A stretch of DNA of 56,031 bases from Nitrospirales bacterium (GTDB lineage Bacteria; Nitrospirota; Nitrospiria; Nitrospirales; UBA8639). A model generated the notes under the pieces. It had not been told where the DNA came from, ran no database searches, and saw only the letters and a list, made by a program, of their open reading frames with translations. The translations under genes were made by a program, and so were the position numbers. Shown in pieces: positions 1,579 through 9,585 of this stretch. The DNA is taken from NCBI GenBank assembly GCA_029261295.1, contig JAJDBP010000030.1, forward strand, positions 1-56,031, written 5' to 3'. Position 1 is the stretch's first letter; each line of letters begins with the position of its first letter.

Positions 1579-3411
1579 TTAAATGGAAAATTGAACGGCT
1601 GGTTGTGAACTACTCGGCTTTGCGAGAATGCCTTTTTGTTTCAAGGTTTCTATTATTTGATGTGTACGGGCATCAAAATCTTCTGGTCCGGCAAAAATGA
1701 GATCTCGATCTGGTTGGGGCCCGGTTTGGTCTTTGGTCATATGAACCGTGACGACCTGAATCGGGTTGACCAGAGTTTGAACCGTTTGGACAATCCCTTT
1801 GGCAGTTGGTGGGAATGGATTAGTGGTGGTAATCACAAGCGAGCCGGTATCGGCCAATAACCGGACGACCTCTCCAAACCGGCGGACAATTTCCTCCGGT
1901 TTTGTATCATGCAAATCGGCATCCAACCCTCGTTGTAGATTCTCGGCAGCGAGTAGATACGCATGGCGCCCTTCGGCAACTAAGACGGTTTCTAGCTTTC
2001 TGGCGAGGAAGCTTTTAGCGGTGGTGTCTGCTCCAGTAAAGAGCACCACGGCTGCTCGGTGCCCATAGCGTAAGCTCCGCTCTTCCACTCCGACATCGCC
2101 TTTCACCCATGCAGAATCTCGTTCTCGGGCTTCAGTTCGGAAATTTTCTTGTTCGTCCGCAACTAATTCCGTGATGATGCCGCCACCAGCCACGTCATAA
2201 TTATCGACGAGAACAAAACGCCCAGTGGTTTCAAAGCTAGCATACAGATCGAAAGCCAAAGGAGCTTTGGTCCGCAAGGTAATATCGGCAACTTCGTTGC
2301 GTTGCACCATGGATTGTGTGTGACGATCGTCTAGATTATTCGCATCCACGATGCGATGAATTGCCGCAATTTCGCATGGGACTTCACGAGTTGCGAGTCG
2401 CAAGGTATAGGTTTTTTGGGTTTCGAGTGGCTGACTGCCCAACCAAAACAGATTGGCGCGTATTTGCGTAGACACCATTGGGCGGGTGTCTTCATGGGTG
2501 GCGATGTGGCCGCGCTCTACGAAAATTTGTTCATCTAACGTAATACCGACTGATTGGCCGGCAATGGCTTGAGTCGGCGGGGGATCACAATTAAAGGCTT
2601 CGATAGATTGAATATTGGCGGACTTATTCGTGGGCGAAAACACCAAGCGGTCGCCTATCTTCAATTTCCCGGCTGTGATGCGGCCTACCAAGATGCGTCG
2701 AGCATCAAATTTATACACGTCCTGGAGAGGGAACCTCAGAGCTTGTTCGTTCCGTGCTGTTTCTAGGTGAAAATGGGCTAAAGATTCCAGTACCGAGGGG
2801 CCGGTATACCATGGGGTCTCAGGGCTGATTTGAGTGATATTGATGCCTTGTTTGGCGCTAGCCGGAATAATGTATTGAGGGACGACATTCAATTGCGTCA
2901 GGAATTCTCGATATTCCTTTTCAATGGCCTGAAAAGTATCCTCGCGATAATTGACCAGATCCATTTTATTGACGACCACGGTGACTTGTTTGACCCCTAG
3001 CATCGAGAGTAATAAACCGTGGCGCTTAGATTGATCGCGAACCCCTTCCAAGGCATCAATGATTAACAGTGCCGCCTCCGCTCGGGCGGCGCCGGACACC
3101 ATGTTTTTTAAAAATTCTTTATGCCCTGGCGCATCGATAATAATGTATTGCCGACCGCCCCAGGTGAAAAACGTTCTGGCCGTATCAATGGTAATGCCCT
3201 GTTGTTGTTCTTCTAAAAAGGCATCGAAGAGAAAGGCGTACTCAAACTCCTTCCCTTGCTGGCGGCAAATGGCTTGAATTTTTTCTATTTTGCCTTCAGG
3301 GAGTGTCCCTGTGTCTGCATAGAGGCGGCCCAATAAGGTCGATTTCCCATGGTCTACATGGCCGACAATGACGATATTCATGCGCTCTTGGATGGTGGTG
3401 TCAGTCGTCAT
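1579..3411 (-). CDS. cysN: Sulfate adenylyltransferase large subunit CysN fused to a degenerate APS-kinase domain
   Basis: The N-terminal 430 residues are a CysN GTPase: P-loop GHVDHGKST near residues 18-26, DAPGHKEF near 94-101 and NKMD near 149-152. With CysD it makes APS from sulfate and ATP, driven by GTP hydrolysis. From about residue 445 a CysC-like domain follows, but its P-loop is GADTTAKS (461-468) instead of GxxGxGKS/T, and the usual LDGDN segment reads LAAEN, so the catalytic Asp is lost. The fold is still recognisable ([14 protein letters not shown]). I therefore expect no APS kinase activity; this agrees with the APS-type CysH in the same operon. An ATG at 3411 is preferred over a GTG three bases earlier that overlaps the cysD stop. 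Last gene of the operon. Confidence 0.92.
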
Positions 3412-3413
3412 CA

Positions 3414-4214
3414 CTACATGTATCCATCTTTGCGTAATTGTTCCATTCCCCGACCTTCGTCTTGTGCGCGTCCAGCTCGCTCGGCCACTTTGCTATTTTT
3501 CAATTCGATAATGACCTCATCTACGTTCTTGGATGTTGACTTGATCGGGGAGGTGCAAGGCGCACACCCCAGGCTGCGATAGCGTGAGCCGGTTCCTTGA
3601 TCTAAATACAAATGGTCAAGGAATGGGATGTTTTCCAGTTTGATATATTCCCAAATATTAATTTCTGTCCAATCTAAGAGAGGATGAATCCGGATATGAG
3701 TTCCTGGTGGAAAGGAAATTTTGTATTGATCCCATAGCTCAGGTGGCTGATCGCGGAAATCCCAATCGTTATTCTTATCTCGTGGAGAAAAATAGCGTTC
3801 TTTGGCACGGGTGGCATCTTCATCAGATCGGACGCCCAAAATAATTCCGGTATAGCCTTTTTCTTCTAGCAAGAGTTTGAGCCCTTCGGTTTTCAAGGCA
3901 GTACAGCAGGCGATGCGGCCTTTTTCATGGTTCATTCCTTCGGCCAGAGCTTTCTTGTTTTGTCCGACCACCAGGTTCAAGCGCCATTCGCGAGCCAGAC
4001 GATCCCGGTATTCAATCATTTCAGGAATTTTATAGCTGGTATCCACATGCAACAAAGGAAAGGGGACATGCCCAAAGAATGCTTTACGTGCTAACCACAA
4101 CAATACGGTGGAGTCTTTGCCCATAGACCAGAGCATGCCTAGGTTGTCGAAGTTTTTGTAGGCTTCTCGGAGGATATAGATGCTCTGGTCCTCTAATTGC
4201 CGAATATGTTTCAT
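3414..4214 (-). CDS. cysD: Sulfate adenylyltransferase small subunit CysD, with four APS-reductase-like cysteines
   Basis: The 266-residue protein is the catalytic ATP sulfurylase subunit that adenylylates sulfate, of the PAPS-reductase-like fold. The nucleotide loop SMGKDST is at 30-36, followed by ARKAFFG and [15 protein letters not shown]; the C-terminus [10 protein letters not shown]...GYM is typical. It is shorter than E. coli CysD (about 300). Unusually it has Cys103-Cys104 ([10 protein letters not shown]) and Cys217-x2-Cys220 (GCAPC), the same CC...CxxC arrangement that binds 4Fe-4S in APS reductases; E. coli CysD lacks these. Whether a cluster is bound is unknown. Its ATG overlaps the stop of the TrpD2-like gene as ATGA, implying translational coupling. 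Confidence 0.92.
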
Positions 4215-5338
4215 GCTGTCACCAATGGAGTCGAAAGTGAATCGTTGTTTGGGGATGTATGAGTCTGCGTATTGACCAGCTTTTGATAAAAAGTTCTGGC
4301 CTTTCCTGAGTCGAGCGCATCATTGGCTAAAGGTGTGGCCTGGGCCAATGAGGAAGCCAGCCCGGCAGCGTAAATGTAGAGCGCCGCATTGAAAATCACC
4401 CATGCGCGCTGGTCGCCTCGCAGGCGATTATCTAACAATTGAATGAGCACGTGGGCTTCATGGTTTGGGCTAGCCGTAGGTGATGCTCCCTCTTGCGCGC
4501 TTATTTTGGCGCTCATGGCTTGGAAAGGGCCAAGTCGAAAACCGGCATCTTCCGGGCCGAAGGTCAAGGGGGAAATGTGCCCACTTCGCAATTCATGTGC
4601 TGATGATGGGCCGGATATAGAGAGTTCGGGGAACCCTTCAACTCCTTGAATAATGAGTGCGCGTGATGTTCGCAACATATCCAAGGCTTCGGTCATTTTA
4701 TTGAGATAAGGCGGATGGGCAATACCGATGACTTGCGAAGGCAGCTGCGCGGGGTTAAGCAACCTTGCAATCTGATGAGACAGATTTTGTAAGCCAAATT
4801 CTTGTCGCAAATCGAGGAGCTTTGTTAAGGGAGCATGGTACCCAGCCAAGTCCATATACGCCCATGAATGTTGTGAGACTTGTTCAGTGGCTTCACGAGC
4901 AGATTGTGCGATGGGGAGCCTGAGCTGGTAAAGGACACGAGGTAGGTCGTAGCCGAGGCCAGGGTTCTCAATTCCATGCATGAATATTCCGGCCCCTGCT
5001 GCGCCGGCAACAAGCGAAGCTGCAATCACGACATGAATGGTATTGTGCTTTTCGCCATATAAGGGGAGATCAATCATGTTGGCAGAATTTGGAAATTGAA
5101 TTGGTTGGGTGCATTTCCGAGCTGTTGTGGTAAACGCGGCTAATTCGCCGATGGACTCCGTTTTAATCCGCATGGCCATAAGGAATGCCCCAATTTGGGC
5201 TGGAGTGGCTTCTCCGTCAATAATGGCATTCAGAGCAAATTTGGCTTCTTCCCATGTGAGGTCCTTCGCGCCTTTTAACCCCTTGCCAATTTTGGCAATA
5301 ATATGATCCATGGAGTGGCCCATCATCAAAATGTCCAT
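4211..5338 (-). CDS. TrpD2/YbiB-like protein of the anthranilate phosphoribosyltransferase fold
   Basis: The protein (up to 375 residues) follows the nucleoside phosphorylase-like helical/alpha-beta fold of TrpD. The opening [17 protein letters not shown] and [19 protein letters not shown] align well with the E. coli YbiB (TrpD2) pattern. The PRPP-binding motifs of true TrpD are lost: GTGGD is replaced by LYGEK (93-97) and KHGNRS by MHGIEN (120-125). No other trp genes are nearby, so tryptophan synthesis is unlikely. YbiB binds nucleic acids; whether this one does is unknown. Three starts are possible: ATG at 5338, ATG at 5326 overlapping the upstream TGA (coupled), and ATG at 5311, which matches the YbiB start best. 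Its stop overlaps the cysD start. Confidence 0.75.
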
Positions 5339-5739
5339 ACCTGATCAGCGGGGAGGACCGCTTCTTTCCAAAAGGCCTCGGCCGTTTGAACTTCGTCTAA
5401 TTCCGCGATAAGTTCTTCGGGTTTAAAGGAAAAATATCGAAGAGAATCCTTGCATGCCGAAAGCTTAACGTTTCCGCTTTCCTTAGCTTTCTGAAACAAT
5501 TCTGAAAGGTCAACTTTATTTTCTTCTCGTAGGATATCTCGAACCGTAGCCTCACGCCCTCGATAGTCGGAAGAGAGGCTCAGTTCTTTTATTTTAATTT
5601 TACTCATGCGGCTCGCTGCTCCATCTCTGAAAAATCCACTTACCTCAATGCCACTTGCAGCAGCCAATGTGATCCATTCACATGTCTGGAGAATGTTGTT
5701 GAAGTCACCGCGAGTAATAATGATGGCCAATTTTTGCAC
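5326..5739 (-). CDS. DsrE/TusD-like small sulfur-transfer family protein
   Basis: A 137-residue soluble protein that begins with the strand-turn typical of the DsrE/DsrF/TusD fold (KLAIIITRGDFNN) and continues with alternating strands and helices. Family members carry sulfur as a cysteine persulfide and often work with TusA. Two cysteines are present; Cys96 in KLSACKDSLRYF sits where the active cysteine of DsrE-like proteins lies, Cys20 is in the first helix. Assignment is by fold pattern and cysteine position, so moderate. The start is GTG, supported by GGGAGAGGG just upstream. It lies between cysH and the TrpD2-like gene in the sulfate operon; a partner could be the TusA domain of the sulfite reductase. 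Confidence 0.65.
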   Translation of the reverse strand: MQKLAIIITRGDFNNILQTCEWITLAAASGIEVSGFFRDGAASRMSKIKIKELSLSSDYRGREATVRDILREENKVDLSELFQKAKESGNVKLSACKDSLRYFSFKPEELIAELDEVQTAEAFWKEAVLPADQVWTF

Positions 5740-5802: not shown

Positions 5803-6519
5803 TTAGCGGTGCAGTCCGCATTCCGTCTTGGTCGAACTGCTCCATCGTCCAGATCGGGGATCATCGCCGGGCATTACGGGAGCCGTGCAGTGGGTGCAAC
5901 CAATACTCGGGAAATGTTGGTCATGGAGTTCATTGTACGGTACATTTTGAGCGCGAATGTATTCCCAAACCTGTTCCCATGACCAGGAAGCTAGGGGATT
6001 GAATTTTACCAAACCAAACTTCGCATCCCACTCGACAAGGCCCGCATGTGCACGAGTGGGAGATTGGTCACGCCGGATTCCAGTAATCCAAGCAGCGTAC
6101 TGTTGAAGGACTCGTGTTAACGGTTCAATTTTGCGGAGCTGGCAACATTGATCAGGGTTTCTCAACCACAAACCCTCACCATGTTGGGACGCTTGCTCTG
6201 CTGGAGTTAATACCGATTTCATTTGAATCACCTGGTCATCTTGCAACTGATAGTGTTTGATGATTCGATCTTGTACTGCATGCGTTTCTGTGAATAAAAA
6301 ATCGGTATCCAAATAAAAGAGCACGCTGCGGGGATTGATCCGGAGCATCATATCCACGAGGGCGACATCTTCTGCTCCGAAGCTACAGGCCAATATGACA
6401 CGGGGGGTATATCGCTCCAAAGCCATTTCAAGAATTTTTTGCGGACTCTGGCCTTCCAGCGATTGGTTCCACTCGGCGAGTTCATTTGGAGACGGTGGGG
6501 TATTAGTCGTGGCAGACAT
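5803..6519 (-). CDS. cysH: Adenylylsulfate (APS) reductase, assimilatory, 4Fe-4S type
   Basis: The 238-residue cytoplasmic enzyme reduces APS to sulfite and AMP using thioredoxin or glutaredoxin. Cys125-Cys126 (DQCCQLRK) and Cys208-x2-Cys211 (GCTHC) bind the 4Fe-4S cluster that separates APS reductases from PAPS reductases. The catalytic Cys234 is in the C-terminal KTECGLH motif. Substrate-loop elements SFGAED (46-51) and YLDTDFLF (69-76) and the arginines of GIRRDQSPTR are present. It begins 9 bases after the sulfite reductase stop, with the ribosome site inside the end of that gene, so the two are co-translated. The APS specificity explains why a working APS kinase is not needed in the operon. 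Confidence 0.95.
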   Translation of the reverse strand: MSATTNTPPSPNELAEWNQSLEGQSPQKILEMALERYTPRVILACSFGAEDVALVDMMLRINPRSVLFYLDTDFLFTETHAVQDRIIKHYQLQDDQVIQMKSVLTPAEQASQHGEGLWLRNPDQCCQLRKIEPLTRVLQQYAAWITGIRRDQSPTRAHAGLVEWDAKFGLVKFNPLASWSWEQVWEYIRAQNVPYNELHDQHFPSIGCTHCTAPVMPGDDPRSGRWSSSTKTECGLHR

Positions 6520-6528
6520 TGGAATGGT

Positions 6529-9036
6529 TTACCCTTCAACCTTTTCGACAAGGACCTTGAAATGTTGTTCGTCAACATCCATGGGAACTTGTTGAAGGAC
6601 CTTATGCCCATCATTTTTGAGACTGACAGGCACATTGCGAATTGGATCGCCTGCATCAAGCCAGACTTCCAACTGTTCTCCTTCGTCCATCATTTCTAAT
6701 TTCAACTTCGTTTTGACATAATTCATCGGACAGGCCACGCCTCGCAAGTCATAGACCTCAGTCTCTCCAGCGGTCGATGGTTCCGGTTGAGGCGACAAAC
6801 CATTTGTTGGCGCGGTTTCCTCTGCCCCCACTTCTGCTGGGGTAAGCTTGAGGTCCTGCCCAATTCGTTCTGTGACCGTTCGGCACACGTCGACAAACCC
6901 CTTGGCAAAGGTCAGCTTGCTTTGAGTGAAGTCTGTTGAGGCATCCTTGCTCCCAAGGTCACCAAATTTTTCGGCAACATTATGATAGTCAGCCGGCAAG
7001 AGTCCTTTGGCGCGAATCATGTCATCAAATTCTTTTAAGGTATCCGCATCGGTATTCGGATCAATCCCTTCGGTCACGAGAATCGCTTTTGCGCCAGCCA
7101 CCACTGCACGGTAGGCTTTATTAATGGCCATGGCATATTGGTGCTTTTCGACCAGTAATCGTGCTTGATACAGTTCTTGTTCGGCTTCTAAGATTCGGTT
7201 GTCGATCATTTCTAATGCACCACCAGCACATTCACCTGGCCCTAAATCCTCGACAGAAAATTCCTCATCCCCTTCCCAATCGAAATAAAATTCTTTGTCA
7301 TCCTGAAACGACGGGAGAATGGTATATGGAATCAGTTCGTCTTTCAGTTGAACTTTCCCTGTACGATTAATAAAGGCGGGGAGGGATTCTCCGTCCTTTC
7401 GTGTTCGTCGATACAGATCTAAAAGATGCTGGACCGCAGCTGGCACATTTTTCGCGGGCACTTTTACAATTAATTGTGCAATCTTTGGTGTGCCGTCGAC
7501 TTGGCCACCTAAATGCAATTCATAGACGGGGGCAATATGATCACCAATCCGTTTGCCGACTCCATGAAGGCCAATGGTCGCGATATGGTGTTGTGCACAA
7601 GAGTTGTGGCAACCACTGATTTTGACATCGACACCCTTAAGGTCATCCGGGCATTTCCCAGCTGGGAATACCTCAGCTAACGCGCGGGCGAGCCCTTTTG
7701 ACGAGGTGATTCCCAATCCACAGGTATCCGTTCCTGGGCAGGCCACAATGTCTTCAACCCCTTCGGCTCCGGGATCACCTAAGCCATGCGCCAGAAGTTC
7801 TTCATAAAAGTGAGCCAGTTGATTATCTGGAATCCATCGAACCATCATATTTTGGTTAATTGTGGTTCGAATATTTCCATTGGCGTAGCGTTCGGCTAGG
7901 TCTGCCAACACGAACATTTGTTCTGTTGTCAGGTCACCGGAACGGAGCCGAACGGCTGCTGCTTTAAATCCAGGCTGTCGTTGCGAAATGACATTCGTGG
8001 CATACCAGGCAGTAAAAGCATCTGATTCTGTTGTTGTGCCATTTTGCAAAGAACCGTTTGGCGAGCCTTGACCGTTGCTCTGTGCCGATGCCCCATTGCC
8101 GTTTTTGGTCGGCATGATCAGAGGCGGATCGTCAGGATACACGCCTGGGATTAGCCCCAGTTTCGTGGCTCCAGATTGGATCATGCTGTCATAGGTTTCT
8201 TTCCAGCGTTTTGAAAATTCCTCAAAGCCTAATTTGTCGAGCACAAACTTCATGCGAGCCTTACTGCGATTTTTGCGATTACCCAAATTATCAAATATTT
8301 TCAACATGGCTTCAATGGAGGGAATCAGTTCTTCCATTGGAACAAATTCTCGGAGTGTTTTCGCCAAACGTGGGGTGGACCCTAACCCACCACCTACTAC
8401 CATTTTGAATCCAATCACACCTTCGGCATTGCGGGCGGCTAGAAGCCCTACGTCGTGAATAGGCGTCAAGGCGCAGTCCTGTTTGCATCCCGAGAAGGCA
8501 ATTTTAAATTTCCGTGGAAGACTTTGATTTAGCGGATTTCGTAACAAATGATAGGCCACGGTTTTGGCATAGGGTGTCACGTCAAACACTTCTCCAGGGC
8601 AGACACCAGCAAGTGCACAGGCCGTGACATTTCGCACGGTATTGGCACAGGCTTCGCGAGTGGTTAAATCTACTTCTGCTAATTTCCGCATGATGATGCC
8701 CACTTGGGGAAGTGGGACAAAGTGCAATTGAATATCTTGCCGAGTCGTGACGTGACCCACCCCAGTGGCATAGGTGTCGGTGATTTCAGCCACCTGTCGT
8801 AATTGATTGGCATTCATTCCCCCAAAAGGAATTTTAATGCGGATCATTTGGACATCGGGTTGGCGCTGGCCATAAATACCGTATTGCAGACGGAAGGGTT
8901 TAAACACATCCATGGGGGTATCGCCGGATTGGACCCGAGCGACTTCATCTTCGAACGTTTCGATTTCCTCAATTATTTCCTGGGGAATCGGGATTGTCTT
9001 GATGGGTGGTCTGGTAGAGGCTGGTGACGTGCTCAT
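6529..9036 (-). CDS. Siroheme sulfite (nitrite) reductase fused to HEPN and TusA domains
   Basis: 835 residues. Residues 1-600 form the two-fold repeated hemoprotein of the sulfite/nitrite reductase family, which reduces sulfite to sulfide with six electrons; context favours sulfite. Substrate residues match E. coli CysI: Arg99 (TTRQDIQ), Arg135 (VRNV), Lys176 and Lys178 (PRKFK). The cluster/siroheme ligands Cys433, 439, 476, 480 follow the CX5C...CX3C rule. The N-terminal half also has Cys140, 146, 184, 188 in the same CX5C...CX3C spacing, which assimilatory enzymes normally lack. A Gly/Asn/Ser linker (312-338) separates the halves. Residues about 612-730 look like a HEPN domain and 760-835 a TusA domain with its sulfur-carrying Cys769 (GVACPMN). 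Start ATG after GGAGAAAG; second gene of the operon, 93 bases after the regulator. Confidence 0.9.
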   Translation of the reverse strand: MSTSPASTRPPIKTIPIPQEIIEEIETFEDEVARVQSGDTPMDVFKPFRLQYGIYGQRQPDVQMIRIKIPFGGMNANQLRQVAEITDTYATGVGHVTTRQDIQLHFVPLPQVGIIMRKLAEVDLTTREACANTVRNVTACALAGVCPGEVFDVTPYAKTVAYHLLRNPLNQSLPRKFKIAFSGCKQDCALTPIHDVGLLAARNAEGVIGFKMVVGGGLGSTPRLAKTLREFVPMEELIPSIEAMLKIFDNLGNRKNRSKARMKFVLDKLGFEEFSKRWKETYDSMIQSGATKLGLIPGVYPDDPPLIMPTKNGNGASAQSNGQGSPNGSLQNGTTTESDAFTAWYATNVISQRQPGFKAAAVRLRSGDLTTEQMFVLADLAERYANGNIRTTINQNMMVRWIPDNQLAHFYEELLAHGLGDPGAEGVEDIVACPGTDTCGLGITSSKGLARALAEVFPAGKCPDDLKGVDVKISGCHNSCAQHHIATIGLHGVGKRIGDHIAPVYELHLGGQVDGTPKIAQLIVKVPAKNVPAAVQHLLDLYRRTRKDGESLPAFINRTGKVQLKDELIPYTILPSFQDDKEFYFDWEGDEEFSVEDLGPGECAGGALEMIDNRILEAEQELYQARLLVEKHQYAMAINKAYRAVVAGAKAILVTEGIDPNTDADTLKEFDDMIRAKGLLPADYHNVAEKFGDLGSKDASTDFTQSKLTFAKGFVDVCRTVTERIGQDLKLTPAEVGAEETAPTNGLSPQPEPSTAGETEVYDLRGVACPMNYVKTKLKLEMMDEGEQLEVWLDAGDPIRNVPVSLKNDGHKVLQQVPMDVDEQHFKVLVEKVEG

Positions 9037-9129: not shown

Positions 9130-9585
9130 CTAAATATGATACATCAAGCTGCGTTGGGATTCGAGTTTTTGGTGTTGGTCAACCAAAGATTGGAGTGAAA
9201 TCACTCGAAGAACGGCTTGCTCAGCTTCCTGAACCTGTTCCCAAATGGTTGACAGAATGGTGATTGAAGCCCCACGTTTTTTGGTTTGCGCCGTTAATTG
9301 TCCTGTTGTCGACGCCTTAACCTCATTTCCATTCATGGAATTGACCAATTCAGCCAATGTGATTTGATTGGGGTCTTGGGCTAGGGTATATCCACCTTGT
9401 GCACCTCGTAAGCTTCGCACGATTCCTGCCTGCTTTAATCCCTGCAATATTTGCTCAATAAATCTAGACGGGATGCCTTGGCGGGCCGCAATGGCTTTTG
9501 CCTGAAGCGGGGTATCCCTATCATGTTGAGCCAGTTCGATTGTGGCCATTATTCCGTAGGTAACCTTTATAGGAAATCTGTTCAT
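9130..9585 (-). CDS. Rrf2-family transcriptional regulator (CymR-like)
   Basis: The 151-residue protein has the Rrf2 winged helix-turn-helix at the N-terminus (VTYGIMATIELA, AARQGIPSRFIEQILQGLKQAG) and the wing motif SLRGAQGGYTLA. It contains no cysteine at all, so it cannot bind an Fe-S cluster as IscR or NsrR do. It resembles CymR, the cysteine-metabolism regulator, down to a similar C-terminal MYHI. First gene of the sulfate-reduction operon; no terminator is visible before the sulfite reductase, so it probably controls and is transcribed with it. Signal ligand unknown; CymR acts with cysteine synthase, which is not in this window. Confidence 0.88.
   Translation of the reverse strand: MNRFPIKVTYGIMATIELAQHDRDTPLQAKAIAARQGIPSRFIEQILQGLKQAGIVRSLRGAQGGYTLAQDPNQITLAELVNSMNGNEVKASTTGQLTAQTKKRGASITILSTIWEQVQEAEQAVLRVISLQSLVDQHQKLESQRSLMYHI

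Follow-up and report, generated by a model that had tools for sequence, protein, structure and literature searches.

The 56,031-nt stretch of DNA from a Nitrospirales bacterium that was analysed here (the window) encodes a single polypeptide chain in which a sirohaem-dependent reductase is joined to a HEPN-fold domain and a TusA sulfur-carrier domain. The reading we favour, and regard as moderately probable, is that this protein (SIR) is a Nitrospirales assimilatory sulfite reductase with one catalytic site, an ancestral N-terminal cluster and capture of persulfide by its TusA domain.

6529–9036, minus strand: SIR, a sirohaem sulfite reductase-HEPN-TusA fusion of 835 aa (open reading frame and domain matches)

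The gene is one uninterrupted open reading frame running from 9036 to 6529, and the plus-strand translation of 6529–9036 contains stops throughout. The nine cysteines which a sequence-only reading of this DNA had placed at residues 140, 146, 184, 188, 433, 439, 476, 480 and 769 each lie exactly there in the translation, and the architecture it proposed (sirohaem reductase, HEPN-like domain and TusA) was recovered by Pfam and, in the case of HEPN, also by fold. Two NIR_SIR_ferr and two NIR_SIR matches, together with the CX5C...CX3C motif, place SIR in the sirohaem sulfite/nitrite reductase superfamily, with cofactor binding predicted. SIR is a conserved protein of the order Nitrospirales and occurs in several remoter Nitrospirota families: all same-order genomes sampled carry it (in one case as a split and in another as a truncated copy), the best 80 public loci show 64–94% identity under titles naming Nitrospira, Nitrospirales, Nitrospiraceae or Nitrospirota/Nitrospirae, and the copies in the remoter families are 42–50% identical. 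The family comprises at least 117 alignment rows from Nitrospirota, while its distribution outside the phylum was judged from plasmid records and one IMG/VR contig, the latter being the sole relative among viral contigs. A frameshift or read-through origin of the fusion was ruled out, since the fusion is kept in more than 80 public loci. The architecture is real and conserved, and is apparently undescribed, such that novelty of its description is likely but not certain: a literature search lying mostly outside the subscription journals retrieved no paper combining sulfite reductase, HEPN and TusA, the sole co-mention of 'HEPN domain' and 'sulfite reductase' was a fungal domain survey, and publications on TusA, siroheme and fused sulfite reductases, represented mainly by their titles and abstracts, did not describe the SIR-HEPN-TusA fusion.

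8137–8919, minus strand: N-terminal reductase half (residues 40–300), with R66, R99, R135, K176 and K178 (alignment with half-size enzymes)
8473–8619, minus strand: N-terminal ligand set Cys140/146/184/188, CX5C...CX3C (pairing with the classical set, family invariance and tree of halves)
7237–8019, minus strand: C-terminal reductase half, residues 340–600 (Pfam and profile alignments)
7597–7740, minus strand: classical sirohaem-[4Fe-4S] ligand set Cys433/439/476/480 (without exception in the 117 family rows, and shared by all relatives)

Profile alignment of the N half of SIR against its C half (E 3.9e-18) paired the ligand cysteines one to one (C140/C433, C146/C439, C184/C476 and C188/C480), bearing out the matching spacing that had been pointed out for the two sets. 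Because this alignment pairs all four cysteines, the N-terminal motif is judged not to be a product of chance; the probability of five cysteines in 216 aligned positions filling all four ligand columns by chance is 6e-8. In the 117-row family alignment, all eight ligand cysteines are invariant wherever covered. Invariance is the exception in this alignment, being seen in just 102 of 560 core columns, and most rows have another residue in place of the non-ligand Cys462. Cys140/146/184/188 occur in every covering member (114–115 of 117 rows, the remaining rows being gaps), an invariance that spans at least 114 members with identity down to approximately 42%, and the set appears, on the evidence of the alignment, to be still under strict selection. 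AlphaFold2 modelling of SIR with 38 close homologues gave a mean pLDDT of 62.7, with values below 50 at residues 128–155 and 161–195, i.e. around both N-terminal cysteine pairs. The fold matches of the model were NirA (1zj8, E 3.8e-24), plant NiR and SiR and CysI, followed by Fsr and DsrA/B, with further matches to HEPN (2hsb) and TusA.

CysI, ferredoxin SiR and NirA have the two-half fold, the classical cluster set and the R/R/R/K/K residues in common with SIR; however, none of those sampled has the N-terminal ligand set in complete form, a HEPN domain or a TusA domain. The N-terminal set had been proposed to be missing from assimilatory enzymes such as CysI, and it is indeed absent from CysI-type and Bacteroidota relatives. 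Each of the two-half relatives sampled lacks between one and four of these cysteines, the pattern being C?CC in NirA-like proteins, among them that of the source genome, and C?C? in Thermus and in further NiR-like proteins; Bacteroidota, proteobacterial CysI, Deinococcus and Chlorohelix have none of the four. The full set is retained by half-size sirohaem reductases, with which both halves of SIR align with the four cysteines in register (E 5.4e-30 for the N half and 1.5e-23 for the C half). These half-size enzymes (alSir/Dsr-LP-like) and the F420-dependent Fsr differ from SIR in that each chain is a single half into which a ferredoxin domain is inserted. When the halves were placed in one tree, all N halves formed one group (100/95), all C halves another (100/98) and the half-size enzymes a separate one (97/91), and one duplication and fusion therefore lies behind all two-half enzymes sampled. 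Since the half-size group holds the four cysteines and remnants persist at the same columns in other enzymes, the N-terminal set is most simply explained as an ancestral feature that was retained in SIR and lost independently several times elsewhere, which supports the ancestral state put forward as one option by the sequence-only reading. It would thus represent an ancestral second [4Fe-4S] site that the other sampled fused enzymes have lost. Jespersen et al. (PMC10229431) proposed a model in which a duplicated one-cluster ancestor was fused, after which the aSirs lost one sirohaem-cluster site, and the retention pattern suggested by the SIR sequences matches that scenario. Given the small sample from outside the phylum, uniqueness of the complete N-terminal set is not claimed.

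In E. coli CysI, Arg83, Arg117, Arg153, Lys215 and Lys217 surround the sirohaem and sulfite. The SIR counterparts are R66, R99, R135, K176 and K178, all of which are invariant in alignments A1 and A2; these residues would hold sulfite at the sirohaem that is paired with the cluster of the classical set, Cys433/439/476/480. The resulting signature (RRRKK) is that of sulfite reductases, whereas the NirA-like protein of the source genome reads RRRKN, with Asn at the CysI-217 position where SIR has Lys (K178). As Lys instead of Asn at this position marks sulfite over nitrite reduction, SIR is predicted by its specificity residue to be a sulfite, not a nitrite, reductase. In the half-versus-half alignment, the C-half counterparts of the five residues are A361, N394, E428, G468 and D470. 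The residues that hold sulfite therefore exist for the classical site only, and the second site should not reduce sulfite but rather be structural or electron-relaying. A second siroheme had been offered as another option for the N-terminal cysteines, and as an active site it is not supported by this replacement of R/R/R/K/K; a catalytic second site was rejected since the five anion/sirohaem-binding residues have no C-half counterparts. A second catalytically active sirohaem-[4Fe-4S] centre at the N-terminal set, which would give two active sites per chain, is consequently considered very improbable: while the ligand set is complete and each protomer of half-size enzymes such as Fsr holds a single active centre (PMC10229431), the pseudo-symmetric positions do not present R, R, R, K and K, and several of them are variable among relatives. 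Within the single-site reading, the N-terminal set most likely holds a predicted cluster that serves structure or electron relay, and any tetrapyrrole bound there would be non-catalytic, as in DsrA.

Assignment of SIR to established equivalogs was rejected in three cases, as it scored 126.7 against the CysI model (NCBIfam cut-off 756.6), 295 against NirA (NCBIfam cut-off 523) and 36 against dsrA (cut-off 393 bits), and, with regard to DsrAB, it is a single chain without an inserted ferredoxin domain. No cysJ over cut-off was found in the source genome that would provide the flavoprotein partner of an NADPH-dependent CysJI enzyme, and electrons would therefore reach SIR from a non-flavoprotein donor, probably ferredoxin.

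9130–9585, minus strand: Rrf2-family regulator encoded upstream of SIR (closest specific profiles CymR and IscR, each scoring under its cut-off)
5803–6519, minus strand: CysH with the CC...CxxC motifs of APS reductase (motifs and profile)
5326–5739, minus strand: DsrE-like sulfurtransferase with a conserved Cys (Pfam DrsE_2/DsrE)
4211–5338, minus strand: TrpD-like glycosyltransferase family 3 protein, a conserved operon member with no evident role
3414–4214, minus strand: CysD, sulfate adenylyltransferase small subunit (NF003587 over cut-off)
1579–3414, minus strand: CysN with a C-terminal APS-kinase-like domain, P-loop GADTTAKS (TIGR02034 over cut-off)

By its gene content, the operon of the window (rrf2-SIR-cysH-dsrE-trpD-cysD-cysN) is assimilatory, and sulfite would be derived from APS through the action of CysDN and then CysH. 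The arrangement typical of Nitrospirales is rrf2-SIR-cysH-(dsrE)-trpD-cysD-cysN, and of the 80 SIR loci with enough sequence, 71 have rrf2 as the closest upstream gene that was recognised. A dsrE gene was recognised in just 12 of 91 loci of the SIR family, and the cysteine of its product is kept in all 11 covering relatives. The P-loop of the APS-kinase-like domain reads GADTTAKS in the window CysN, compared to mostly xxxTGKS in relatives; this lineage may have lost the kinase step, which would be consistent with an APS-type CysH. Elsewhere in Nitrospirota the arrangement is sat-SIR-cysH (locus L119), aprA, aprB, SIR, a trpD-like gene and sat (L118), or rrf2-aprA-aprB-SIR-sat (L120, L121, L126 and L127), and from these gene orders it appears that the sulfite-making enzyme changes across families and SIR is constant. 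The five loci with an aprA-aprB-SIR-sat cluster have no adjoining dsrAB. Genomes with this cluster could be misread as those of sulfate reducers, or could assimilate sulfate via AprBA. The same five loci would also suit a reverse or two-way enzyme, in which TusA brings sulfane sulfur, the sirohaem site oxidises it to sulfite and AprBA with Sat proceeds to sulfate, and PMC3397948 and PMC4175335 describe TusA, DsrE and DsrC-type relays serving oxidative pathways. We consider this improbable, as CysDN and an APS reductase of the CysH type accompany the SIR of the window under an Rrf2 regulator, the CX5C...CX3C motif of SIR is of the assimilatory type and unlike the CXnCC of catalytic DsrB (PMC10229431), and the genome has no DsrC.

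6532–6774, minus strand: TusA domain (residues 755–835), CPMN motif with Cys769 at 6730–6732 (Pfam and CPxN subfamily)

The preferred reading, in which the product of an assimilatory reductase is captured by TusA, draws on the C-terminal domain and its relatives. The Pfam TusA match at residues 762–832 scored 58.6 bits (cut-off 28.6), and Cys769 is kept in 114 of 114 covering rows. TusA, YedF and YeeD carriers share with this domain the conserved Cys of a GxxCP motif; they display CPxP, whereas the SIR domain displays CPxN (CPMN) and has its putative loading enzyme in the same chain. In a TusA tree (based on few columns), a CPxN group (100/99) stands apart from canonical CPxP TusA and includes every TusA fused to a sirohaem reductase as well as the tusA genes of loci L125, L157, L159 and L160; the tusA of L158, beside a half-size reductase, falls outside this group in the same few-column tree. 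Locus L125 encodes SIR-HEPN without TusA and a separate tusA gene directly downstream (its moaD and moaE genes, L125:9067-9846, minus strand, lie directly upstream of SIR-HEPN), while in L157, L158, L159 and L160 separate tusA genes adjoin half-size sirohaem reductase genes. In L157 and L158, cysH is also found near tusA and the half-size reductase. Furthermore, five half-size sirohaem reductases from Nitrospirota family f10, each containing a ferredoxin insert, are fused C-terminally to the same kind of CPxN TusA as in SIR:

L152:4406-5554, minus strand: half-size reductase-TusA fusion
L154:4470-5624, minus strand: half-size reductase-TusA fusion
L155:4685-6112, minus strand: half-size reductase-TusA fusion
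L153:3830-4987, plus strand: half-size reductase-TusA fusion
L156:4536-6044, plus strand: half-size reductase-TusA fusion

The f10 genomes with these fusions mostly also carry dsrA. Since CPxN TusA is repeatedly fused to, or located beside, sirohaem reductases, functional coupling with sulfur hand-off is supported; this repeated linkage is the best evidence of coupling, though not of chemistry, and lends the transfer of sulfur to TusA suggested by the sequence-only reading indirect support from several architectures. The separate TusA in L125 and its absence from Bacteroidota and Thermus relatives imply that TusA is dispensable for reduction itself. The source genome also has a stand-alone TusA with a CPYN motif (L197:7139-7360, minus strand) beside hemA/hemC-like genes, approximately 4 kb from a cobA/cysG-type gene (G000:C35:160369-161079).

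7228–7230, minus strand: Cys603 in GECAGG, a possible sulfur acceptor near the active site (invariant)

Cys603, which the sequence-only reading had not pointed out, lies between the reductase and the HEPN domain. All 117 rows have it, and its motif is kept in all relatives found of this reductase clade, including those of Bacteroidota and Thermus that lack TusA or HEPN. In the Thermus relative, the motif forms the C-terminus of the chain (...GRGECAV), and this conserved C-terminal Cys recalls DsrC, in which a cysteine lies on a C-terminal arm. The related sulfite reductase ending in GRGECAV is encoded on Thermus oshimai plasmid pTHEOS01 (L140), where it has cysH, sat and sirohaem genes as neighbours, and holds two of the four N-terminal cysteines. 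That Cys603 reaches the sirohaem is a guess. Under the preferred reading, reduced sulfur would be captured at least partly as a persulfide, perhaps first on Cys603 and then on Cys769 of the tethered TusA, from which it would be passed on to the DsrE-like protein or other acceptors.

Alternatively, SIR may be an ordinary ferredoxin-type assimilatory sulfite reductase that releases free sulfide to CysK, its N-terminal cysteines stabilising the fold (as a disulfide, a metal site or a relict) and its TusA serving unrelated sulfur trafficking or docking. The catalytic residues and the operon all fit such a plain enzyme, CysK (a sulfide-using cysteine synthase, present in the source genome together with CobA) can use free sulfide, and TusA-less relatives exist; however, the four N-terminal cysteines are strictly invariant at the cluster-ligand positions of half-size enzymes and a dedicated TusA subfamily is repeatedly linked with sirohaem reductases, and we thus regard this alternative as rather unlikely.

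6847–7218, minus strand: HEPN-fold helical domain, residues 607–730 (Pfam and fold match)

The HEPN domain is weak by sequence (Pfam HEPN at 615–671, 25.6 bits versus a cut-off of 22). Within A2, where several of the 15 proteins do not contain such a domain, it was detected at E 1e-3 in just three. The SIR model matched HEPN AF_0298 (PDB 2hsb) with a TM of 0.80 and an rmsd of 2.6 over 128 alignment columns. The fold is shared; the SIR copy, though, is a domain inside a reductase and has no conserved RNase motif. SIR contains R626...H632, but in the family alignments residue 626 is not invariant and His632 is kept among close relatives only and not in distant members, meaning that the Rx4-6H motif is not conserved. 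A ribonuclease role is therefore unlikely, an active RNase HEPN was rejected, and the domain would most likely act as a non-enzymatic spacer or docking domain.

Considered as a whole, SIR resembles the DsrAB/DsrC system in having two ligand sets per functional unit, the occupancy of the second set in SIR being predicted from the ligands present. In that system, the DsrA site is non-catalytic and the sulfur of DsrAB is handed to the carrier protein DsrC (PMC10229431). SIR differs in being a single fused chain without inserted ferredoxin domains, with a tethered TusA as carrier and no DsrC. A bolder extension of the preferred reading, which we put forward as a tentative possibility, is that SIR is a living intermediate: one chain that corresponds to DsrAB-DsrC, has retained the two clusters inherited from the ancestral duplicate (one catalytic, the other non-catalytic) and passes sulfur via Cys603 to the tethered TusA, in which case Nitrospira sulfate assimilation would deliver protein persulfide instead of free sulfide. 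SIR is a probable survivor of the two-cluster stage in the evolution of sirohaem enzymes, and makes the duplication-fusion-loss model (PMC10229431) testable on a real protein, since both sites appear to have been kept in a widespread group to which cultivated Nitrospira belong. Capture of the product by TusA would, if it occurs, link sulfite reduction directly to persulfide trafficking, with the tethered domain as a counterpart of DsrC. Additionally, as SIR lies beside aprBA and sat in other Nitrospirota families, how it is read affects the annotation of genomes for sulfate reduction.
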